Shown one piece after another: positions 2,319 to 20,128 of a stretch of DNA of 20,128 nucleotides. Position 1 is the stretch's first letter. Each line of letters begins with the position of its first letter. Source of the stretch: a virus. A program made the translations under genes and the position numbers. The stretch spans positions 1 to 20,128 of IMG/VR virus record IMGVR_UViG_3300044948_001003. One strand, given 5' to 3'. A model generated the notes under the pieces. It searched no databases. It saw only the letters and a program-made list of their open reading frames with translations, and was not told the origin of the DNA.

Positions 2319-3326
2319 ATGCCCATGAACAATCCCTTCGACAACCCCGCGTTCTCCATGTCGGCGCTGTCCACCGCCATCAACATCCTGCCCAACAACT
2401 ATGGGCTGATGGACCAGATGAATTTGTTTCCGGCCAAGCCAGTGCGTTTCCGCCAGATCGCCATCGAGGAGAAGAACGGCGTCCTGAGCCTGTTGCCGAC
2501 GCTGCCGGTGGGCTCGCCTGGTACGGTGGGCGTGCGCGGCAAACGCAAGCTGCGTTCCTTCGCCATCCCCCATATCCCGCACGAGGACGTAGTGCTGCCG
2601 GAAGAAGTACAGGGCATCCGCGCCTTCGGCATGGAATCCGAGTTGCAGTCCATCTCCAACGTCATGGTCGAGCATCTGCAAACCATGCGGAACAAGCACG
2701 CCATCACCCTGGAACATCTGCGCATGGGCGCCTTGAAGGGCGTAATCCTGGATTCGGATGGTTCGATGCTCTACGACCTCTATGACGAATTCCAGATCAC
2801 GCCGAAGGTGGTGGACTTCAAGTTCAGCAACACCGACCTGGACGTGAAGAAGGTTTGTCTGGGGATCAAGCGCTATGTCTCCAAGAATCTGCAGGGCGAG
2901 TTCATGACCGGCATCCACTGCCTGGTCTCGTCCAGCTTCTTCGACGCGTTGACCGGACATGACAATGTGAAGGAGGCCTACAAGGACTGGCAGACCGGAC
3001 TGGCGCTGCGTTCTGACTTGCGCACGGGATTCACCTTCGCCGGCATGACCTTCGAGGAATACTTCGGCGAGGCATCGGATGGCACCACCACGCGCAGCTT
3101 CATCGGTGAGGACGAGGGCCACGCCTTCCCCCTGGGTACGGTGGACACCTTCGCCACCTACTTCGCGCCGGCGGATTTCAACGAGACGGTGAACACGCTC
3201 GGCCAGCCGCTCTATGCCAAGCAGGAGCCGCGCAAGTTCGATCGCGGCACCGATCTGCACACGCAGAGCAATCCGCTGCCCATGTGCCACCGCCCCGGGC
3301 TGCTAGTGAAGCTCACGATGTCTTGA
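2319..3326 (+). CDS. Major capsid protein, lambda gpE family
   Basis: A 335-residue protein, almost the length of lambda gpE (341). It is the shell subunit, HK97-like fold, forming the icosahedral head. Recognisable parts are the N-terminal NIYGLM-like segment NILPNNYGLMDQMNLFP, the IEEKNGVLSLLPT stretch, HIPHEDVVLPEEVQGIR at about residues 86-102, and the C-terminal YAKQEPRKFDRGTDLHTQSNPLPMCHRPGLLVKL, which is typical of PF03864 proteins. The start at 2319 has a second ATG two codons later; CAAAGGA upstream supports either. Its last 14 bases overlap the end of an opposite-strand gene, which is unusual for a capsid gene. Lambda FI has no counterpart in the space that follows. Confidence 0.94.
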   Translation: MPMNNPFDNPAFSMSALSTAINILPNNYGLMDQMNLFPAKPVRFRQIAIEEKNGVLSLLPTLPVGSPGTVGVRGKRKLRSFAIPHIPHEDVVLPEEVQGIRAFGMESELQSISNVMVEHLQTMRNKHAITLEHLRMGALKGVILDSDGSMLYDLYDEFQITPKVVDFKFSNTDLDVKKVCLGIKRYVSKNLQGEFMTGIHCLVSSSFFDALTGHDNVKEAYKDWQTGLALRSDLRTGFTFAGMTFEEYFGEASDGTTTRSFIGEDEGHAFPLGTVDTFATYFAPADFNETVNTLGQPLYAKQEPRKFDRGTDLHTQSNPLPMCHRPGLLVKLTMS

Positions 3327-3600
3327 GCGCTTTCTGACGCTCCTTGGTGTAGCGGTACCAGGGCTGCGGCGGGTCGCCAGCCATGAAGCGAGTGGCGGCG
3401 ATGAAGGTGTCGAGCAGGCACGGGTCGTAGTTGACCCCGTTCTGCCCGCACAACTGCTGAAACAGGACGTAGGGGTCTTGCCCCACAAGGTCCGTCGGTT
3501 GGTGGATGCCGACCTCGCGCAAATACCCGGCAACCGCCGGGCCGATGTTGGGGATGGCCTCCAGTACCAACGCGTCTGCCGCTGTCTTCGCTTTCTTCAT
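3313..3600 (-). CDS. Cdd1-like helix-hairpin-helix protein (probable moron)
   Basis: A 95-residue protein on the strand opposite to every other gene of the head and tail operon. The N-terminal half contains a helix-hairpin-helix motif (IPNIGPAVAGYLREVGI, residues ~16-32) followed by TDLVGQDPYVLFQQLC, and the C-terminal end has PWYRYTKER. This pattern matches the Cdd1 'pathogenicity locus' or mitomycin-resistance-related family as I recall it; the biochemical role of that family is not known to me, and DNA binding is inferred from the HhH motif. GGAGG lies nine bases before the ATG on the minus strand. It ends inside the last codons of the capsid gene and its start is 36 bases from the divergent FII-like gene. 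A separate promoter would have to lie within the FII-like gene; only a weak TATCAT (3637-3642, complement) is visible. Confidence 0.82.
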   Translation of the reverse strand: MKKAKTAADALVLEAIPNIGPAVAGYLREVGIHQPTDLVGQDPYVLFQQLCGQNGVNYDPCLLDTFIAATRFMAGDPPQPWYRYTKERQKALKTS

Positions 3601-4388: not shown

Positions 4389-4622
4389 ATGCCCATCGTT
4401 GAACTTCTGAAACCCCACACCCACGCCGGTCGCGACTACCAGCCGCGTGACCGCATCGAACTCGATACGGTACTGGCCCGCTGGCTAGTGGATGCCGGTG
4501 TCGCGCTTCCGGTCCTGGTTGGTGATGCGAACAGATCACCGCACACCCGTCGAAGGGTGTCATCCATCCGCACGCCACCGCCTATTACCCCAACCCATCC
4601 ATCCGAGGAGACCGCTTCATGA
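4389..4622 (+). CDS. Small DUF7210-like phage protein
   Basis: A 77-residue protein starting four bases after the preceding gene. The first half, VELLKPHTHAGRDYQPRDRIELD followed by ARWLVDAGVA, matches the short DUF7210-type proteins that I recall next to tail tube genes in proteobacterial prophages. These have no known function. The second half (from about residue 45) is rich in Arg, Pro, Thr and Ser and looks disordered. Its stop overlaps the start of the tail tube gene (ATGA at 4619-4622), so the two are probably translationally coupled. GAGGAGA at the end of this gene serves as the tail tube's ribosome binding site. Confidence 0.65.
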   Translation: MPIVELLKPHTHAGRDYQPRDRIELDTVLARWLVDAGVALPVLVGDANRSPHTRRRVSSIRTPPPITPTHPSEETAS

Positions 4623-5374
4623 GTACCTATGCATCCTTCCAGGGTCGCGTCTATCTGGGCAAGCGTGACGTCGCCGGCAATCCGGTCGAAGTCCGTTCGC
4701 CCGGCAACGTGGCGGAATTGAAACTCGCCCTCAAGACCGAGGTGCTGGAGCACTACGAGTCGCAATCCGGCCAGCGCTCGCTCGATCACCGCATGGTGAA
4801 GTCCAAGTCAGCCAGCGTGAACCTCACCATCGAGGAATTCACCCCAGAAAATCTGGCTCTCGCCCTGTACGGCACTTCCGTCCTGGGCAGCAGCGGCACT
4901 GTCACCGACGAACCAGTGGGTGGCGCGGCACCAGTGATTGGCGACCGCTACTTCCTGGCCCACCCCAAGGTATCCACCCTGGTGGTGCAGGACAGCGCAG
5001 CCACGCCCGCGACCCTGACCCTGGGCACGCATTACACGGCGGATACCGATTTCGGTGCCGTCCAGTTTCTGGACATCACCGGCCTGACCGCTCCCTTCAA
5101 GGCCAGCTACGCCTTCGGGGTAGTGACCGAGATCGGCCTCTTCACGCAGCCTCTGCCGGAACGCTTCCTTCGTCTCGAAGGCGTGAACACGGCGGCGGGC
5201 AATGCCCGGGTGCTGGTCGAACTCTATCGAGTGGCGTTCGACCCGCTGAAAGAGTTGGCGTTGATCTCCAACGACTACAACAAGTTCGAACTGGAGGGCT
5301 CGCTGCTGGCGGATGCCTCGAAACCCTACGACGCGGTGCTTGGCCAGTTCGGCAAGATCGTTCAGATCGGGTGA
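4619..5374 (+). CDS. Major tail tube protein
   Basis: A 251-residue protein that should polymerise as stacked hexameric rings to form the tail tube. Visible features are the N-terminal ASFQGRVYLGKRDVAGNP strand pair, a central SQSGQRSLDHRMVKSKSASVNLTIEEFTPENLALALYG block, and a C-terminal LPERFLRLEGVNTA...VELYRVAFDPLKELALISNDYNKFELEGSLLAD stretch; the last pattern (beta strands around a conserved FELEG) is typical of siphovirus tube proteins. An inserted, probably Ig-like or loop domain lies at about residues 90-160. GAGGAGA is well placed before the ATG. It sits directly before the tail chaperone pair, the standard position. I am confident of the role, less so of the exact family. Confidence 0.82.
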   Translation: MSTYASFQGRVYLGKRDVAGNPVEVRSPGNVAELKLALKTEVLEHYESQSGQRSLDHRMVKSKSASVNLTIEEFTPENLALALYGTSVLGSSGTVTDEPVGGAAPVIGDRYFLAHPKVSTLVVQDSAATPATLTLGTHYTADTDFGAVQFLDITGLTAPFKASYAFGVVTEIGLFTQPLPERFLRLEGVNTAAGNARVLVELYRVAFDPLKELALISNDYNKFELEGSLLADASKPYDAVLGQFGKIVQIG

Positions 5375-5379
5375 CCACC

Positions 5380-5787
5380 ATGAGCCTGGAAACCTTTGTG
5401 CCCGAGCCGGTCATCGTCGAGATTGCCGGCGAGACGTTGGCGATCGCCCCCTTGAAGGTAGGCGAATTGCCGACCTTCATACGCGCCATCCGCCCCTTCG
5501 CCCAGCATCTGACCCAGGACGTGGACTGGCTCGTCCTGTTCGGTGAGCGCGGAGAGGATCTGGTTTCCGCGCTGGCGGTGGCCATCCGCAAGCCGCGCGA
5601 GTGGGTGGCGGCGCGGGAACTGGATGAGGCGATTCGTTTGAGCGAGGCGGTGTTCGAGGTCAATGCGGATTTTTTTATCCAGCGCCTGGCCCCGGTGCTG
5701 GCTCGGGTGGCGAGCCGGGTGGAGACGATTGGGGCGCGCTTCTCCAACGCCTCGTCAAACACGGGCACCACTACCCCGAAGTCCTGA
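5380..5787 (+). CDS. Tail assembly chaperone, short form (gpG-like)
   Basis: The zero-frame product is 135 residues from the ATG at 5380 (138 from the GTG at 5371, which overlaps the tail tube stop). I prefer 5380 because GGTG lies six bases upstream. It is the short chaperone that coats the tape measure protein before tube assembly. Residues 1-60 read as beta strand then helix (VEIAGETLAIAPLKVGELPTF), similar to the N-terminal part of chaperones in Mu-like and lambda-like phages. At codons 98-99 the ribosome meets T TTT TTT (5670-5676), and without slipping it ends in a Thr/Ser-rich tail (SNASSNTGTTTPKS). Position between tail tube and tape measure is the standard one for G/GT pairs. Confidence 0.8.
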   Translation: MSLETFVPEPVIVEIAGETLAIAPLKVGELPTFIRAIRPFAQHLTQDVDWLVLFGERGEDLVSALAVAIRKPREWVAARELDEAIRLSEAVFEVNADFFIQRLAPVLARVASRVETIGARFSNASSNTGTTTPKS

Positions 5788-5936
5788 ACTACACGGTGGC
5801 TCAGGTGCGCGCGTTCAGCGAAGCGATCGAACGCAGCGAAAGCCTGGCACTCGCCGCCCAGTTCGCACTGCTGGTAACTGCTGCGCGTGGCGGCAACAGC
5901 GAAATCAAATCCCTCCTGCGTGAACTCAAGCCATGA
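5380..5936 (+). CDS. Tail assembly chaperone, frameshifted long form (gpGT-like)
   Basis: A -1 shift at 5670-5676 joins 99 zero-frame codons (5380-5676) to 86 codons in the -1 frame (read from 5676, stop TGA at 5934-5936), giving 185 residues. Read in the new frame, the junction is a Gly/Pro-rich linker (YPAPGPGAGSGGEPGG), then a well-formed domain: WGALLQRLVKHGHHYPEVLNY, TVAQVRAFSEAIER, ALAAQFALLVTAARGG and a final LLRELKP. This second domain is coding-like, has no start of its own and would be lost without frameshifting. In lambda the T domain binds the tube protein while G binds the tape measure. The stop overlaps the next gene's ATG (ATGA). The fusion is inferred from sequence, by analogy with many phages. 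Confidence 0.8.
5670..5676 (+). other. Slippery heptamer for -1 programmed frameshifting
   Basis: Seven T residues lie in phase as T TTT TTT relative to the chaperone frame (codons GAT TTT TTT ATC), the canonical X XXY YYZ form. It is the only such heptamer in the overlap between the two frames and sits where the coding character passes from the zero frame to the -1 frame. Confidence 0.82.
5679..5701 (+). promoter_or_regulatory. Candidate frameshift-stimulating hairpin
   Basis: CCAGCGCC (5679-5686) can pair with GGTGCTGG (5694-5701): eight pairs including one G-U, with a seven-base loop. It begins only two bases after the slippery site, shorter than the usual five to nine, so the lower pairs may need to melt. 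A competing stem of similar strength, CTGGCTCG (5698-5705) with CGAGCCGG (5711-5718), lies just downstream. Confidence 0.45.
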
Positions 5937-6595
5937 AGTTGTCGCTGACCACCTCCGGCCTGCTCGACCCGAAGCGGCTCGATAGCTGGGTGCCGGAAAA
6001 GCGTCGAGCGATCCGCAAAGCCGTCGAGTCCGCCATGAAAACCACCGGCAAGGAAATGGCCGACGCCGCGCGCAGCCGAATGCAATCAGCGTTCAAGGTG
6101 AAGAGGGCAGGATTTTTGAAGTCGATGCGTGCGAAGGTCTATGCCGGCAGCCCGGAGCGGTTCCCGGCGCTCCTCATCGGCTCGAAGATTGCCTGGCTGG
6201 GTCTGCACATGAAGGGCGGCACCATCACCGGCAAGCGCGGCAAGCTGCTGATCCCGCTGTTGCCCGAGCACCAGCGAATCGGCCGCCGCGCCTTCAAGCG
6301 CGTCATCGACGGGCTGATGCGCGCCGGGAACGCCTTCTTCATCGAGCGCAACGGCAAGCTGATCTTGATGGCCGAGAACATCAAGGACAACACGGCCGAG
6401 TTACGCCGCTTCAAGCGCGCCGAACGCGATCGCACCGGTGCAAAAACCATCAAGCGAGGCCAGGAAATCCCGATTGCTGTGCTGCTGCCGAGCGTGACCC
6501 TGCGCGGTCGCTTCGATCTGCCCGGCATCGTGCGCGCGCAACTACCAAAGTTGGCAACGAACATCCTGCAACAACTGAACACTCATGGCCTCTGA
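5933..6595 (+). CDS. DUF6441-like phage tail-region protein
   Basis: A 220-residue basic protein between the chaperone pair and the tape measure. The N-terminus LSLTTSGLLD followed by a helical, charged region (AIRKAVESAMKTTGKEMADAARSRMQSAF, residues ~26-54) and repeated Lys/Arg clusters match the DUF6441-type proteins I recall from proteobacterial siphophages. Its function is unknown. The position suggests a tail completion or tape-measure-associated role. It starts at the ATGA overlap with the chaperone stop and its own end overlaps the tape measure start by 11 bases. No signal peptide or membrane segment is seen. Confidence 0.6.
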   Translation: MKLSLTTSGLLDPKRLDSWVPEKRRAIRKAVESAMKTTGKEMADAARSRMQSAFKVKRAGFLKSMRAKVYAGSPERFPALLIGSKIAWLGLHMKGGTITGKRGKLLIPLLPEHQRIGRRAFKRVIDGLMRAGNAFFIERNGKLILMAENIKDNTAELRRFKRAERDRTGAKTIKRGQEIPIAVLLPSVTLRGRFDLPGIVRAQLPKLATNILQQLNTHGL

Positions 6596-9545
6596 ACGCG
6601 CCCAGATCCTGATTGCTGCCATCGACCAGACCAAGCAGGCGTTCGCCTCGGTCAAGAGCGGCCTGGAGGGGATCACCACCGCAGCCAAATCAGTCAACGG
6701 CTTGCTGGCCGGGCTGGGCGCGGCGCTGTCGGTCGCGGGGTTGATGGCCGCTGGCAAGGCCGCGATCGATACCGCCGACGATCTCTCCAAACTGTCCCAG
6801 AAAACTGGCATCTCGGTCGAGTCGCTGTCACTCCTTAAGCCCATCGCCGAGCAATCCGGCATTTCGCTGGAAGGACTGGCCAAGGGCATGCAGAAGTTGG
6901 CGACCGCGATGGTCGAGGCGGCGGGTGGTTCCAAGGAGCAGCTTGAGGTCTTTAGTCGCCTCGGCGTTTCGGTCAAAGGTGCCGCCGGGCAGATTCGTCC
7001 GACCGAAGCGGTGCTGCTCGATCTGGCTGACGCCTTCTCCGTCATGCCCGATGGGGCCGAGAAATCCGCCTTGGCTGTGAAGCTCTTCGGCAAGGCAGGC
7101 GTCGAGCTGATTCCGTTTCTGAACCAGGGCCGTGCCGGCATCGAGGAACTGAAGCAGAAGTTCAAGGAACTGGGCCTGGAGATCAGCGGCGACACGGCTC
7201 GCGCTGCCGAGAAATTCAACGACACCCTCGATACGGTCAAGCAGGCGCTTTCCGGCATCGCCCTACGCGTGGCCGAAGCGGCACTCCCCGCCTTACAGCG
7301 CTTGGCCGACGCCCTGGTGGGTCTGGCCAGCCATGGCGACGAGATTCTGGCCGTGATGCGCGCCCTGGGCGAAGTTCTGGTGGCGGTGCTGGCGGTCAAG
7401 GGTGTCGCGGCGGCGGCCAAGCTGCTGGAATCGGTCAACTTGTTGAAGGCCGCATTCACCCGTTTCCTGCCCATCCTGGCGGCGGTGGCCGTCTGGGAGA
7501 TGGGCAAAGGACTCATCAAGACGGTGCAGGACATTCGCGAGACCAATCGCGCCATCGACGAACTGGGTCGGCAACGGGCGCAGATCGATCAACTCGACGC
7601 CGCGATGCAGGAACTAGCGGCGACCGGCACGGTGAGCATCAAAACCCAGATGGCATTGGCTGCCCTGGCGGCTGAGCGCTTGAAAGCGGCGCTGCCTGGC
7701 ACGGCCGACGCACTGCGCGCCATCCAGGGCGCGGCGACACAAGCTGGTGAAGCCATCCGCCAGGCGCTGGACGCGGAAACCAAGAAAGCCGCTGAATCGG
7801 TCAAGCAGCTTGCTGCCAGTTACAAGCAGGTCGCCGCCGATATCAAGGCAAACTGGGATGCGCGCGTGGCCGAGGTCGAAAGCAACTACAAGCGCCAGGA
7901 AGCAGCCGCGCAAACGGCGGCGCGTTCCGAGTCAGCCGCTATCCAGAGTTCAACACAGAACCTGCTCGCTGCCGAGCGCGATAAACTCGCGGCGGTCGAG
8001 GCCGGTGCGCACCAGATGGAAGCCGCCTGGAAAACCACCTATGGTCAGGCCGTCGCCCTAGCACGGGCCGCTGGCCAGGATGTGGCATCTATCGAACGCC
8101 AGGCGGTAGAGGCGCGCATCAGCCTCTATGGCCAACTGGAATCGGCCTACCGCGCCACCGTCGACCGGCTGATCGCTGAGGAGCAGCGGCATCTCAATGC
8201 CGCCAAGGCCGCCGAGGAGGCACGGCTCAACCTCAAGCTCTCGGTCGAGGACCGCATCCGCGAACTTGGTCGCAAGGGGATGGATGATTACGCGGCCTAC
8301 CAGGACCGGCTGCGCCAGATCGACGAGAAGCAGGCCCAAGCCAAGGCCGCGCTCGACGCCGGCAACTATGAGCAGGCGCGCAAACTTGCCGAGGAAGCCA
8401 TCGCCCTGGCCGAGCGTTCGGCCTCAGCGGTGACCCAACAAGTCGAGCAGAACGGCAAGACAGTCACCCAGACGATGGTGTCCGAGGGCCAGGCCGCCGC
8501 CACCGCCATCGGGCAGATCAAGGAATCCGCCGGCATCGCCGACTCGGCGTTGAAGGGGTTGGGCGATGCCCACAAACAAGCCGCATCAGCGGCAGGTGCC
8601 GGCGCGGATGAGGCCAAACGCGCGCTGGCCTCCGTCTCAGACGAACTCGGCAAACTGCGCCAGCAACTGCTGTTCCAGGACAAGCTGAAGCTCGAAGTCG
8701 ATATTGAAGGCGCACGGGCCGGTATCGAGAAGCTGCAGGCGCTGATGGCGGCGCAGCAGTTGATCACCAAGATTCAGGCCGACACGAAAGAAGCCGAGTC
8801 CGCTCTGGAAAAACTCAAAACCGACACGGGCAATCTCACCCTGGTCGCCAAGATCGAAGCCGACACCACGAAGGTGATGGCCGACATCGACACGTTGAAG
8901 GGCACGCTTTCGGCAGCCAAGGTGGAGATCCCGGCGCTGGTGTCCTTCGACCAGCCCCGGGCGCAACTGGCTTCGTTCGCTCAGGACGCCCGCACGGTGT
9001 TATCCAATCCGACGTCGGCGACGCACACGCCGCAGCCTGATCTCGGCCAGTACCGGGCGGCGGTGTCTGAACTCATGCGTCCCACTTCGAGCCGCCACAC
9101 TGTCTATGTGACGAGGGTGGCAACCAATGCCCAGGGCGGGCTGATTCAGCGGTTCGCCGAGGGTGGCCAGGCCATCGCCGAGGGATTCAAGCGGATGTCC
9201 GGCCGCATCTTCGGGCCGGGCACGGAAACCTCGGACTCGGTGCCAGCGCTGCTGTCGCATGGCGAGTTCGTGGTGCGCGCGGCCTCGGTGCGCAAGTTCG
9301 GCGAGGGCTTCTTCGCAGCGCTCAACGCCGGCTTTGTGCCTCAAATTCCTCGTTTTGCGGCGGGGGGTGCCGTGGCCAATGCTGTGGCGCAGGCGACGAT
9401 GGGCGGCGGTTCGTCCTCGACTCCCGCCCGCGATGTGGTCGACCTTCGCTTTCATGTCGGCGGCAAGCCGCACACCGTGCAATCCAGCCGCGACACCGCC
9501 ATGCAACTGGCCAGCGCGCTGCGTGAACTGTCGCGGGGATCGTGA
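6585..9545 (+). CDS. Tail tape measure protein
   Basis: A 986-residue protein that sets tail length and is ejected with the DNA. The N-terminal 30 residues are amphipathic, followed by hydrophobic stretches at about residues 38-60 and 230-290, as expected for a protein that enters the cell envelope. Residues ~310-850 are mostly long Ala/Glu/Lys/Gln-rich coiled coil with little proline or cysteine. The C-terminal part has the family's Gly-rich segment: AEGGQAIAEGF, then GRIFGPGTETSDSVPALLSHGEFVVRAASVRKFG and PRFAAGGAV. By the rule of about 0.15 nm per residue it would specify a tail near 150 nm (inference). The start overlaps the previous gene by 11 bases and the ribosome binding site is weak, so translation may be coupled. 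Confidence 0.95.
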   Translation: MASERAQILIAAIDQTKQAFASVKSGLEGITTAAKSVNGLLAGLGAALSVAGLMAAGKAAIDTADDLSKLSQKTGISVESLSLLKPIAEQSGISLEGLAKGMQKLATAMVEAAGGSKEQLEVFSRLGVSVKGAAGQIRPTEAVLLDLADAFSVMPDGAEKSALAVKLFGKAGVELIPFLNQGRAGIEELKQKFKELGLEISGDTARAAEKFNDTLDTVKQALSGIALRVAEAALPALQRLADALVGLASHGDEILAVMRALGEVLVAVLAVKGVAAAAKLLESVNLLKAAFTRFLPILAAVAVWEMGKGLIKTVQDIRETNRAIDELGRQRAQIDQLDAAMQELAATGTVSIKTQMALAALAAERLKAALPGTADALRAIQGAATQAGEAIRQALDAETKKAAESVKQLAASYKQVAADIKANWDARVAEVESNYKRQEAAAQTAARSESAAIQSSTQNLLAAERDKLAAVEAGAHQMEAAWKTTYGQAVALARAAGQDVASIERQAVEARISLYGQLESAYRATVDRLIAEEQRHLNAAKAAEEARLNLKLSVEDRIRELGRKGMDDYAAYQDRLRQIDEKQAQAKAALDAGNYEQARKLAEEAIALAERSASAVTQQVEQNGKTVTQTMVSEGQAAATAIGQIKESAGIADSALKGLGDAHKQAASAAGAGADEAKRALASVSDELGKLRQQLLFQDKLKLEVDIEGARAGIEKLQALMAAQQLITKIQADTKEAESALEKLKTDTGNLTLVAKIEADTTKVMADIDTLKGTLSAAKVEIPALVSFDQPRAQLASFAQDARTVLSNPTSATHTPQPDLGQYRAAVSELMRPTSSRHTVYVTRVATNAQGGLIQRFAEGGQAIAEGFKRMSGRIFGPGTETSDSVPALLSHGEFVVRAASVRKFGEGFFAALNAGFVPQIPRFAAGGAVANAVAQATMGGGSSSTPARDVVDLRFHVGGKPHTVQSSRDTAMQLASALRELSRGS

Positions 9546-12761: not shown

Positions 12762-13588
12762 TGGCCACGGTGGGTTTCACCAAGGAATACTCCGCTGGCG
12801 ACTTCGACTCGGTGGCACTGACCGCCATGTTTGCCACGCTCAAGGGATTTTTTGAAGCGGCGGGGTTCGTCGTTATCCTCGATCAGGCCGACGCTTTTGA
12901 GGTGCTCCCCGCCGGCCACGCGGCCGGCACGATCAGTGATGACATCCCGCACTGGCGCATCGAGCAAGGCGGCGGCAGCTACCCCAACCTTCGTGCTCGC
13001 GCCATCTGGGGCATTAATGACGACGATATCGATAGTCGCTCTTCACACACCGTGTATTTGCTCAATGCCGATACTGATCCGCAGTGGGCCTCCTACCGGG
13101 CCATAACCTTCGCCGCTGACGGCAGCGCAGGCTGGTGGTGGCTGATCTCAAAACAATGGGACGCCGCGCACCCTGAATGGGGAAACTGGTTCGAGGCGAG
13201 CGCAGTGGCCTCGAAGACGCGTCGCTACGCTGCCGACTTTCATGTCGGACTGGTCTGTCGCTACGGCATTTATGACGGTGGAGATTGGCGCACGCCCTAC
13301 GCCATCGCTGCAACAGGCACGATCAATACCAAAGTAGTCGGCACACTCTGGTCACCGCTTGCGGGTATGCAGCGGCATGCTGCATCGCCCTTGCCGCGGC
13401 TGGTCGCCCCACTTTTTTGCGAAATCAACAACTCGCCGGGCGCACACCTGCAAGGCGAGATCGAACACATCATGAAGCTGACCAGCGGTTATGCCTGGGG
13501 AGAAGCGCCGCTGCCGGGATGGTGGGCATTCACCAATGACTACGCGCCGCTTGCTTTGCCCGCACCGACCAGCTTCACGGCACTCTAA
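12761..13588 (+). CDS. Unrecognised 275-residue tail protein
   Basis: A protein of unknown function, aromatic-rich (many Trp and Tyr), beginning MATVGFTKEYSAGDFDSVALTAMFATLKGFFEAAG-like (helix after a short strand). The middle contains YLLNADTDPQWASYR and GWWWLISKQWDAAHPEWGNWFE, unusual for their tryptophan density. Such surfaces are common in receptor- or glycan-binding tail proteins, but this is only a suggestion. The ATG at 12761 shares a base with the previous stop, and its own TAA overlaps the next ATG (TAATG). The longer frame upstream lies inside the previous gene and is not used. Confidence 0.72.
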   Translation: MATVGFTKEYSAGDFDSVALTAMFATLKGFFEAAGFVVILDQADAFEVLPAGHAAGTISDDIPHWRIEQGGGSYPNLRARAIWGINDDDIDSRSSHTVYLLNADTDPQWASYRAITFAADGSAGWWWLISKQWDAAHPEWGNWFEASAVASKTRRYAADFHVGLVCRYGIYDGGDWRTPYAIAATGTINTKVVGTLWSPLAGMQRHAASPLPRLVAPLFCEINNSPGAHLQGEIEHIMKLTSGYAWGEAPLPGWWAFTNDYAPLALPAPTSFTAL

Positions 13589-15408
13589 TGTTCGACACCG
13601 GCCTGACGCTGCACCTGAGTATTCATGCTGACGCGGCTCCGGCGAAGGTGCGTACTCGGTTCTCTGCCGCCTGGGGCACGACCGAGGTTTTTACATCCAA
13701 TGTAACAACGTGGGATATCACCCAGATCAAGGCGTGGCGGAATGTGTCGGGGTGGTCGCTGCGCTTTGCCGGCACGCACCGGACCCGCTATGGCTTGCGC
13801 CTGGAAAAAGGGAACCGCGCACCTTATGGCGACCTGCGCCAGCATCTGCGGCACCTGGTCATACCCTATGGCGATACCCGCCAACACCGGTTACGAGTGA
13901 CGCTACTTTACGGAGATGTGCAGTGGCTACGGACCCGAATTGATCTGCCCTACGGCGAGGCAAGACGTCATCATGCCCGAGTCACGCTGCCCTACGGCGA
14001 AGTGAGCCGACTTCAGGCCCAAGTCATCCTGCCCTACGGCGAGGTGAGCCGACTTCAGGCCCAAGTCACGCTGCCCTATGGCGAGGTGAGTCGGCTTCAG
14101 GCACGAGTCACGCTGCCATACGGCGAGGTAAGTCTGCTTCAGGCCCAAGTCACTCTGCCATACGGCGAAGTGACCCGGCTCCGGCAGCGGCACATCGTTC
14201 TGTATTCCGAGCTCGGCGTTTGCCAAAAAAGCATGCGCCTCACTTACTGGCTGACCCAGGAAGTCGCTACGCACCACGTCCTTGGTTACGCCGTGACGAA
14301 GGTAAATCCGCTCAAAAAGCAGCTCACCGCATCCTGGTCGTTGCTTGCTGATCAGCATCTACAAGCGGTGATGAACACGCCAGAACTGGTCTGGCAGGAC
14401 AAGACGATCCGCATTCTCCAGGCCACCCTGAGTTGCGATGAGGGCAGTCCGGTATGGATCGCGACCGTCGAGATCGCGCAGGTTGCGGACTTCGCTGCCA
14501 TCGCCATCGGCGACCCGATCACCCTGGTCCTTGGCCAGGAAACCTTCGCGCTGGTGGTGGACGGCAAGACTCTATCGCGAGAATCCATGACCAGCCAGCG
14601 TTGCGAACTGACCGCCATCTCGCCGCTGGCGCTGCTGGACGCCCCCTTCGCGGCGACTACCCGGTATTACCAGCCAGGAGCAGTGCCGGCACGCACGGCG
14701 GTAGAAGAACTGATCGGCAACGTGGACTGGCAATTGCCGGACTGGACCATCCCCGCCGGTCGCTTGCTGATGGAAGGCGTGACACCGCTCGCGGCGGCCC
14801 GCAGCGTGGTCGCCGCCATCGGCGGGATCATCGAGAGCAATCCGGATGGCACAGTGGTTTGCCGCCGCCGGCATCCGGTGAGCATCCCCGACTATGGACA
14901 AGCTCCAGTCGCCCATAACCTGTTCGACGCCGATGTCCTGGCCAGTCGCGCCCAGATTGCGCCGGCGCGTGGCTTCAACCGGGTCACTCTGGCCAACGAG
15001 GACGTGGCGAGCGGGCGTTCCGCCGATCGCATCGAGCATGTCGCCGATGCCAACGACGCCAATCAGGGCACGGTGCGGGCCTACCTGGCGATAGCGCGAC
15101 CGGTACTGCTCACCCACACCGGCAATCCGGCAACGGTCATTGCTGCGCTGGGCGAGGTAGCGCGCAGCGAATCCGAGGTTGTCGAGTTCATCGAAGGTCG
15201 GGCGAGCACGCGCTACCCGGTCACCGCCATCAATAGTGCTACCTGGCAGCACACCGATCTCGGGGCCGTGACGGTGGACGGCTTGGCACTGGTTGCGGCG
15301 GTACCCGGCTACAGCCTGCTCGCTCTGACCTACACCTCCATTTCCCTCGACTGGCGCGTCACCTTGGCCGCAGACGAGGAAGTCCAATTCATCTTGGTTG
15401 ACGCTTGA
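13588..15408 (+). CDS. Tail hub-like protein with 14-residue tyrosine repeats
   Basis: A 606-residue protein. Residues 1-78 are a beta-rich N-terminal part. Residues 79-246 are twelve 14-residue units of the form PYGEVSRLQAQVTL, the tyrosines falling exactly every 14 residues from 80 to 234. Residues ~235-606 resemble hub-like proteins of proteobacterial siphophages: IGDPITLVLGQETFALVVDG, then SQRCELTAISPLALLDAPF, a DWTIPAGRLLMEGVTPLAAARSVVAAIGGIIESNPDGTV block near 405-445, and PARGFNRVTLANED. The C-terminal resemblance is to sequences I recall, not a named domain I can prove. It likely sits at the tail tip, and the repeat may form an extended beta structure. The next gene has AAGGAG overlapping this stop. 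Confidence 0.72.
   Translation: MFDTGLTLHLSIHADAAPAKVRTRFSAAWGTTEVFTSNVTTWDITQIKAWRNVSGWSLRFAGTHRTRYGLRLEKGNRAPYGDLRQHLRHLVIPYGDTRQHRLRVTLLYGDVQWLRTRIDLPYGEARRHHARVTLPYGEVSRLQAQVILPYGEVSRLQAQVTLPYGEVSRLQARVTLPYGEVSLLQAQVTLPYGEVTRLRQRHIVLYSELGVCQKSMRLTYWLTQEVATHHVLGYAVTKVNPLKKQLTASWSLLADQHLQAVMNTPELVWQDKTIRILQATLSCDEGSPVWIATVEIAQVADFAAIAIGDPITLVLGQETFALVVDGKTLSRESMTSQRCELTAISPLALLDAPFAATTRYYQPGAVPARTAVEELIGNVDWQLPDWTIPAGRLLMEGVTPLAAARSVVAAIGGIIESNPDGTVVCRRRHPVSIPDYGQAPVAHNLFDADVLASRAQIAPARGFNRVTLANEDVASGRSADRIEHVADANDANQGTVRAYLAIARPVLLTHTGNPATVIAALGEVARSESEVVEFIEGRASTRYPVTAINSATWQHTDLGAVTVDGLALVAAVPGYSLLALTYTSISLDWRVTLAADEEVQFILVDA
13822..14325 (+). repeat. Twelve tandem 42-base coding units (14 residues each)
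   Basis: Units start at 13822 and recur every 42 bases without a change of phase. Units at 13990, 14032, 14074 and 14116 are nearly identical; the first two differ at 3 of 42 positions. The outer units are diverged, keeping mainly the Tyr and the alternating hydrophobic pattern. There are no spacers, so this is a coding tandem repeat and not a CRISPR array. Confidence 0.93.
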
Positions 15409-17920: not shown

Positions 17921-20128
17921 CTAAATGACGTTACGCCCATGGCCGCAAGACGGGCACACAAATGCTATTGTGCTGTTGTCCGCTTTATATGGCACTGCGA
18001 GCACATCGGCTCCAAGAAATCGGTCTAACCATCCCGCTGAGGAGTCATCTGTTGCCCAAGAACTCACCAAGGGCATCAGGATAGGAATCCAATCTTTGCA
18101 GTTCGGGCATATCTCTGTCCCCCACTTCGTCGAGCAGTCCGGACACACACAGGAAAACCGATGCCCATTACTACCTGTGAAATCTCGTCTCGTATCGGCA
18201 ATACTTCCGCAAGTTGGGCAAGCGAGCAAGGACTTCACGAGTCCGATCGCGGCTTCCACCTTACTCGCGAAATTGGCGAGGGCATCAATCTGTGATCGAA
18301 GGTCAGTTATCGATGCGTTCAACACCTTCTTTCGAGCGTTAAGCGGTCCGCTAGCACCGCCATCTCGTACCGCCAGTCGTAACTGCTGGGATACGTCATC
18401 ATGCTCGATCTCCAGGGCTTGAAGTTGCTTCCGTTGATTGGCAAGCCGTTCTGCAAGATGAATATCCTCATAGATTTCAGGCGCACGCGTAACGACTATG
18501 CCGGAGCCAGTTGCTTCAAGCCACGCTACATCGTTCGAGATACTGGGTATTGGGGGGCTGGCTATAAAAGGCGGATAAGCAAGGAACATTGGCGCCGTGA
18601 TCGCCCATCGAAGTTCTCGTGTGACGCGCTCGACGCTGGATAAGTCCCATGGGGAAACTGGCAAGAATCCCGCACGTGGCTGTCCCACCTCAGCCATCTC
18701 GTGCGAAAGTGAATTTAGCCGATGTGCGTTGACGGGGAGCATGCGTTGAAAGGTACTTTCAGAAGAAGGGCTCGGATAGAGAACCAACGCAATCTCGTCT
18801 GCGGTTACGGACGCGTCGGCATCGCGAATTAAATTTGCCAGATCATCGTCACCGAACATCGCAACAGACCCTGGGATAGGAATGATCTTCAATAGCTTCG
18901 CCCCTTCAACCGCAAGGCGCAGCGTGCCGTCGGTCGATGACCAGGAGAGTCGAATGCGTATGCCCCGCCCTTGAAGGTCGATCTCATGTCTATCGAGAGC
19001 GTGCGTCAGGTCTGCAGGTTCGATACCTAGTTGGTGCAGCCCCCTGATGACAAGCAGGAGAGAAAAACCTCCGAAGCAGCGGCATAACTCTTGCATCTCT
19101 TCGAAATACTTGTCTGGTCTTGGTGACTGCTTCAAACCAAGACGCGCCCAAGCTAACCAGACTTCCGCTACTCTGCGGTAATGAACATCGTTCGCGAGAA
19201 TATTCGTCATCGTGAGTGTGGTGCTCACGGATGCACGCTGCGGAACCTCACGATACAGCACGGAATCCATCAGACCCGAGATTGAGAATTTCAGGAACTT
19301 CAGTTGCTTGAGAGTACGCTCAGCTTTGCGGCGAGCCTCTCCAGCATCAAGCGAATCCCCCAAAAGCTGGAATAGCCGCCGTTGCCGCCAGTGGGATCCT
19401 TGGCCAGCGGCTTCACTGAGTTTCTCGGCATCTTTGAAAAAGCCCAGCAACTTGGAGACCTCTCTCACCCGCTCAGAGAGGTACTGTTCCAGATGATCTA
19501 CGAGACGGACAGCAATCCGGTTCTCGTAGATATCGAACTGTTCCTCTCGAACCTGCGAGAGGATGCGTTTAGGAATAACGGCACGCAGAGTTGGGCGATC
19601 CCAATCCTCAGTATGCGCTGCGAGATAGCTGGATGCCTGCGTTGCTAGCCGCCGCGCCCTCGCCACCGTGGTTCGCTCGACTTCCACCCTCAGGTGGGTC
19701 CGAGGTCGCAGACAGACTTCGACGAGATGGCCGAGTCGGTCCGCGAGCAACTTCTCGAGTTCCTGCAATTCTGCCCGTTCAGACATTCCCGGAACGAGAG
19801 GGGACACATCAAGTGCATCCAGCCAAGTTCCACCGGTAGAGAGCAGTTCACTAACGCTGTTTCCGACATCCAGAATGCTCGTCACATCCAGTCTGTCCAG
19901 AACCTGAGCCCGCGAAATCGTTCCTTCAACTCTATCTCGCCCCGGTTCCATCAACTGCCAGTGTCCACGGAGATCAGGTACGCAATAACTAGGCTGCGCT
20001 ATCGCAATGGAGTTCAAGAACGTGGCGTCATCGCCCAGCGGCTCGACCATAAATCTGCCGAGGACCATATCTTCCGCTGGCACATCACAGGAATGCCCAC
20101 GTAATCTATCGATGAACCGATACGTCAT
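17921..20128 (-). CDS. DUF2357-like protein with coiled coil and C-terminal zinc ribbons (possible defence component; 5' end at window edge)
   Basis: A 735-residue reading frame whose first ATG falls on the last bases of the window, so it may start further upstream. Residues ~120-330 resemble DUF2357, a domain associated with McrBC-like type IV restriction: RPRTHLRVEVERTTV, a basic helical region, then EEQFDIYENRIAVRLVDHLEQYL with the family's ENR, and VHYRRVAEVWLAW. Residues ~555-630 are a coiled coil. The C-terminus has four CxxC pairs (Cys637/640, 662/665, 674/677, 725/728), enough for two zinc sites. No PD-(D/E)XK or other nuclease motif is visible, so any catalytic partner is probably a neighbour outside the window. 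The gene is convergent with the lysozyme and has lower GC than the phage genes. The family call and defence role are inference. Confidence 0.68.
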   Translation of the reverse strand: MTYRFIDRLRGHSCDVPAEDMVLGRFMVEPLGDDATFLNSIAIAQPSYCVPDLRGHWQLMEPGRDRVEGTISRAQVLDRLDVTSILDVGNSVSELLSTGGTWLDALDVSPLVPGMSERAELQELEKLLADRLGHLVEVCLRPRTHLRVEVERTTVARARRLATQASSYLAAHTEDWDRPTLRAVIPKRILSQVREEQFDIYENRIAVRLVDHLEQYLSERVREVSKLLGFFKDAEKLSEAAGQGSHWRQRRLFQLLGDSLDAGEARRKAERTLKQLKFLKFSISGLMDSVLYREVPQRASVSTTLTMTNILANDVHYRRVAEVWLAWARLGLKQSPRPDKYFEEMQELCRCFGGFSLLLVIRGLHQLGIEPADLTHALDRHEIDLQGRGIRIRLSWSSTDGTLRLAVEGAKLLKIIPIPGSVAMFGDDDLANLIRDADASVTADEIALVLYPSPSSESTFQRMLPVNAHRLNSLSHEMAEVGQPRAGFLPVSPWDLSSVERVTRELRWAITAPMFLAYPPFIASPPIPSISNDVAWLEATGSGIVVTRAPEIYEDIHLAERLANQRKQLQALEIEHDDVSQQLRLAVRDGGASGPLNARKKVLNASITDLRSQIDALANFASKVEAAIGLVKSLLACPTCGSIADTRRDFTGSNGHRFSCVCPDCSTKWGTEICPNCKDWIPILMPLVSSWATDDSSAGWLDRFLGADVLAVPYKADNSTIAFVCPSCGHGRNVI

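Follow-up and report, generated by a model that had tools for sequence, protein, structure and literature searches.

A probable programmed −1 frameshift at a conserved T-run heptamer in the tail assembly chaperone genes of a proteobacterial siphophage family

The window analysed here is a virus record of 20,128 bases that carries a tailed-phage head and tail module, with genes in the order portal, S49 protease, major head protein, tail terminator, Ig-like major tail protein, tail chaperone, DUF6441 protein, tape measure protein, more tail genes and endolysin (Table 1). The zero-frame chaperone gene, G, has ATG 5380 as its start and GTG 5371 as an alternative start, and its product matches the PHROG 1442 profile 'tail assembly chaperone' over its length (residues 2-131, E=4.3e-30). 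The zero frame ends in ...SNASSNTGTTTPKS with its stop at 5787, and the −1 frame, T, begins FFYPAPGPGAGSGGEPGG and passes through a Gly/Pro-rich linker into a helical domain with a W-L-GH-YT-Q motif; its TGA (5934-5936) overlaps the ATG (5933) of the next gene as ATGA. Both frame ends lie where the first-pass annotation had placed them. The position of G between the major tail protein gene and the tape measure gene is that of a lambda-type G/GT pair, here with the DUF6441 gene intervening. The two best structural matches of predicted G, with modest Z scores, were YqbN (3klu, Z 5.5) and the HK97 chaperone (2ob9, Z 4.5), which is suggestive of a resemblance between the modelled protein and that fold. 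Neither G nor T had a significant match in Foldseek, none of G, T and the DUF6441 protein matched NCBIfam, and tblastn of a phage collection with the window G, the window T, the L030 homologue and the DUF6441 protein gave zero matches. The connection to isolate phages came through PHROG 1442 and the paper on phage PaMx73.

Table 1. Coordinates of predicted features in the 20,128-base window
Feature	Position	Strand	Evidence or remark
Small ORF between head and tail genes	3313..3600	−	Pfam Cdd1 'Pathogenicity locus', E=3e-26
Major tail protein, upstream of G	4619..5374	+	PHROG 807, E=3e-78
G, zero-frame tail assembly chaperone, 135 aa	5380..5787	+	PHROG 1442
SD-like element GAGGTCA (family consensus GAGGTGA)	5656..5662	+	GAGG at 5656-5659, 10 nt before heptamer
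Candidate slippery heptamer T TTT TTT, zero phase	5670..5676	+	T TTT TTY in 141/141 distinct homologous loci
T, −1-frame extension, 88 aa	5670..5936	+	PHROG 13355, E=4e-11; hhalign to D3112 −1 frame
Next gene, DUF6441	5933..6595	+	Pfam PF20039, E=4e-83; start in ATGA overlap with −1-frame stop
Tape measure protein, downstream	6585..9545	+	Several 'tail length tape measure protein' PHROGs, best E=9e-40
Tandem repeat in ORF 13588-15408	13945..14177	+	About 5.5 copies of a 42-base (14-codon) unit
Large ORF, to window end	17921..20128	−	735 aa within window

Elsewhere in the window, the tandem repeat encodes a TLPYGEVSRLQAQV-like peptide. It lies in the N-terminal half of a tail protein, and the C-terminal part of this protein has matches to PHROG 24698 and 6079. 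The large minus-strand ORF has a sub-threshold DUF2357 match and Cys pairs; it has no PHROG match and so is perhaps a host or cargo gene adjoining the phage genes. The small minus-strand ORF, which lies within the structural module, may be a cargo gene; 'Pathogenicity locus' is the name of its family only.

Codons 97-99 of the chaperone ORF read GAT TTT TTT in the context GA[T TTT TTT]ATC, so that the seven Ts have the phase T TTT TTT that tandem −1 slippage needs, as claimed by the first-pass annotation. This is the only T7 on either strand of the window. The mere presence of a T7 is unremarkable, since 31 of 100 shuffles contained at least one; it is the conservation of the heptamer in all distinct homologous loci that, on sequence comparison, lifts it above chance. 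To collect homologues, contigs from viruses and genomes were scanned both with G by itself and with an alignment. Of the 196 sequences found to match G, 141 differ from one another around the site. Where hosts are named, most are Pseudomonadota, and copies in a Hydrogenophilales assembly are 89-93% identical to the G of the window. At the homologous codon 76 of the 141 loci have T TTT TTC and 65 have T TTT TTT, and every one of them has an open −1 frame that encodes a homologous domain and reaches its stop at a distance of 216-372 nt from the heptamer. The alignment of homologues proposed as a check thus bears out the heptamer, while the view that an all-T site is rare does not hold for this family, in which it is also carried by Pseudomonas phage VW-6B.

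The scan patterns contained the peptide FEVNADFF or FEVNADF, and retention of FF therefore partly reflects the choice of hits. Codon choice should be free of this bias because the peptides were back-translated into degenerate DNA patterns. Asp97 is GAT in 140/140 loci and Phe98 is TTT in 141/141, as compared to 40% GAT among Asp codons and 28% TTT among Phe codons elsewhere in the same genes. Because loci share ancestry, these counts overstate independence, and 31 representatives with less than 75% identity are the fairer sample. Among them GAT is used at Asp97 in 31/31 (conserved Asp49, 5/30; Asp82, 10/30) and TTT at Phe98 in 31/31 (Phe92, 7/29), while Phe99 is TTT in 17 and TTC in 14, either pyrimidine permitting slippage. 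Codon choice in the alignment shows selection on the nucleotides of the heptamer across the family.

Both halves of the pair have counterparts in isolate phages. The orf42 product of phage D3112 belongs to PHROG 1442 (E=2e-57), its alignment to G by hhalign profile comparison puts the two FF pairs opposite each other (probability 96.3), and the D3112 −1 frame aligns to T with a probability of 95.5. Since the heptamer is conserved, its codons are constrained, the second frame lacks a start codon and both halves are homologous to D3112-like phages, we read the locus, as the first-pass annotation did, as a programmed −1 frameshift at T TTT TTT in a G/GT-type tail chaperone pair, and put the probability of this reading at about 0.94.

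An SD-like element upstream of the heptamer had been missed in that annotation. The energy profile of pairing with the 3' tail of 16S rRNA has one dominant peak, formed by 8-mers starting 14-16 nt before the heptamer, and these 8-mers fall below −5 kcal/mol in 90-94% of representatives. The consensus GAGGTGA is present in 88 of the 141 loci. Averaged over the family, the energy of the duplex with the 16S tail is −9.46 kcal/mol, against −7.2 ± 0.6 in a synonymous null in which codons were redrawn from each gene's own usage, and this value was reached in none of 1000 simulations, an excess whose main caveat is that clustering removes the relatedness between loci only partly. Glu93 is GAG in 27/28 representatives (Glu29, 17/27), a choice that adds to the excess; it is replaced by Gly in 24 loci, 8 of which read GGGGTGA, a strong SD-like sequence, while the remainder pair more weakly. 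These patterns show nucleotide-level selection at the SD-like site across the family, as far as the aligned loci reveal it. Element strength differs between close relatives: GAGGTGA pairs strongly, the window's own copy GAGGTC is weaker (−7.1), and six loci among its closest relatives have GAAGTGA (−4.9). Phage MP22 has a strongly divergent G protein and, at the same spot and distance, the strong element GGAGGTGA; D3112 has none at the corresponding spot. The element cannot be essential, since it is weak in the window, reduced to GAAGTGA in close relatives and absent in D3112.

Internal SDs located 8-11 nt upstream stimulate −1 shifts (PMC6321510), a range that includes the spacing found here. 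In one survey, 3 of the 13 frameshift clusters from IS elements and prophages had conserved SDs, and both U-run heptamers were among its motifs (PMC4066793), so the idea of an upstream SD is not new in general; for this family, we found no description of the element in the searchable literature. We consider it slightly more probable than an even bet that the SD-like element is a dnaX-type stimulator of the frameshift. A separate feature of this stretch is Asn95 (5662-5664), which is encoded by AAT at 51% of loci, although AAT accounts for 14% of the other Asn codons in the same genes. Neither slippage nor SD-like pairing calls for AAT, and no conserved frame starts at the ATG that it creates.

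A downstream hairpin could be the main stimulator of a real frameshift, and the first-pass annotation had drawn one two bases past the heptamer. A stem can be drawn there (5679-5686 with 5694-5701), and the homologues have a weak mean folding excess downstream (mean z −0.67, standard error 0.19). However, the 84-nt stretch of the window is not more stably folded than shuffled sequence (z +0.55), a 60-nt stretch gives a different fold, and the 31 homologues have no common position or stem downstream. We dropped a downstream structural stimulator on the window z score and the lack of a shared structure, and consider the hairpin unlikely in this role.

The second product might also have an origin other than ribosomal slippage. 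RNA polymerase could slip on the T run, so that some mRNAs lose or gain bases and G-T is made by standard translation. The T7 of the window would suit such slippage, and UUUUUUU runs are suspected of it (PMC4066793), but in the TTC version of the site the run is just six Ts long and then ends in C, phages of the B3 group have C CCT TTC, which is no homopolymer, and both the invariant zero phase and the tandem arrangement XXY YYZ suit tRNA slippage; we hold transcriptional slippage to be very unlikely. Were the T domain instead made by internal initiation, the SD-like sequence would be an ordinary ribosome-binding site, and in about half of the loci GAGGTSAATG does set an ATG right after the motif. 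This ATG is in the +1 frame, where the ORF has only 8-86 unconserved codons, and many loci have ACG in its place; initiation at the +1-frame ATG was dropped because its frame is so short and unconserved. The −1 frame itself has no ATG, GTG or TTG from −60 to +90 in 30/31 representatives, in agreement with the earlier statement that it lacks its own start. The missing start codons argue strongly against internal initiation for nearly all of the family and make it, in our view, highly improbable. Homopolymers are also prone to sequencing and assembly error, and an indel in the T run could have split one long gene. The identical frame break in 141 distinct loci, from many assemblies, as well as in isolate genomes, and the separate short C-terminal end that every zero frame has past the site refute this explanation, whose probability is negligible.

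Under the programmed frameshift reading, normal translation to 5787 would yield G. The fusion G-T would arise from ribosomes that, with Phe-tRNA on UUU and UUU, move one base backwards at U UUU UUU and then translate as far as 5936. We infer that such slippage occurs, and at a rate that would leave G-T the minority product, which, with a chaperone function likewise inferred, would connect the tape measure and major tail proteins as in lambda. The SD-like sequence probably pauses or pulls the elongating ribosome through pairing with 16S rRNA, in a dnaX-like manner, and would lift the rate of slippage. UUY ranks with the A-site codons that shift most readily in E. coli, and IS elements use U_UU.U_UU.C (PMC4066793); against this, U_UUU_UUU was reported to be much less shift-prone in E. 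coli than A_AAA_AAG (PMC5009743). It is about an even chance that the family pairs a U-run site with an upstream 16S-pairing stimulator and no 3' structure, in which case phages may tune the G:GT ratio by the strength of the element.

The site type is already described for this gene family. In the records of MP22 and MP42, a joined CDS and a slippery sequence for −1 translational frameshifting are annotated, the sequence being TTTTTTC in both, and T TTT TTC was predicted for the two genes in the paper on PaMx73 (PMC4378225). Added here are the depth of conservation, the near-equal use of the all-T and T6C sites, the rejection of the hairpin and the upstream SD-like sequence as a likely stimulator. 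The T domain often goes unnoticed in this family of proteobacterial siphophages and prophages, for which the correct annotation, one G and one G-T, is secured. With the SD-like element varying naturally from one close relative to another, the influence of 16S pairing on −1 frameshifting at U-run sites can be measured directly.

Among known systems, the Casadabanvirus phages (D3112, MP22, MP42 and PaMx73) share with the window PHROG 1442 (tested for D3112), a homologous −1 domain, and a site between the Ig-like major tail protein and the tape measure protein, with T TTT TTC at the homologous FF. They differ from it in that the window has T TTT TTT, its tape measure gene is separated from T by a DUF6441 gene, and the G proteins are about 25% identical by profile alignment. 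VW-6B is of the same family and has a −1 frame at its all-T heptamer, but no strong SD-like element at that distance, and its record carries no frameshift annotation. B3, JBD25 and JBD67 (L203, L202 and L204) have the same chaperone family and a −1 frame with a similar T-domain motif; unlike the window they have the heptamer C CCT TTC, and the frameshift is annotated in none of the three records. Phage lambda slips at GGGAAAG, where the window has T TTT TTT. The likeness to lambda G/GT is by analogy, in gene order and in the logic of a minority −1 fusion (PMC5009743). E. coli dnaX differs in having A AAA AAG and a downstream hairpin, of which no conserved counterpart is seen in the window family, and would share with it an SD-like stimulator upstream of the heptamer (PMC3711429, PMC6321510).
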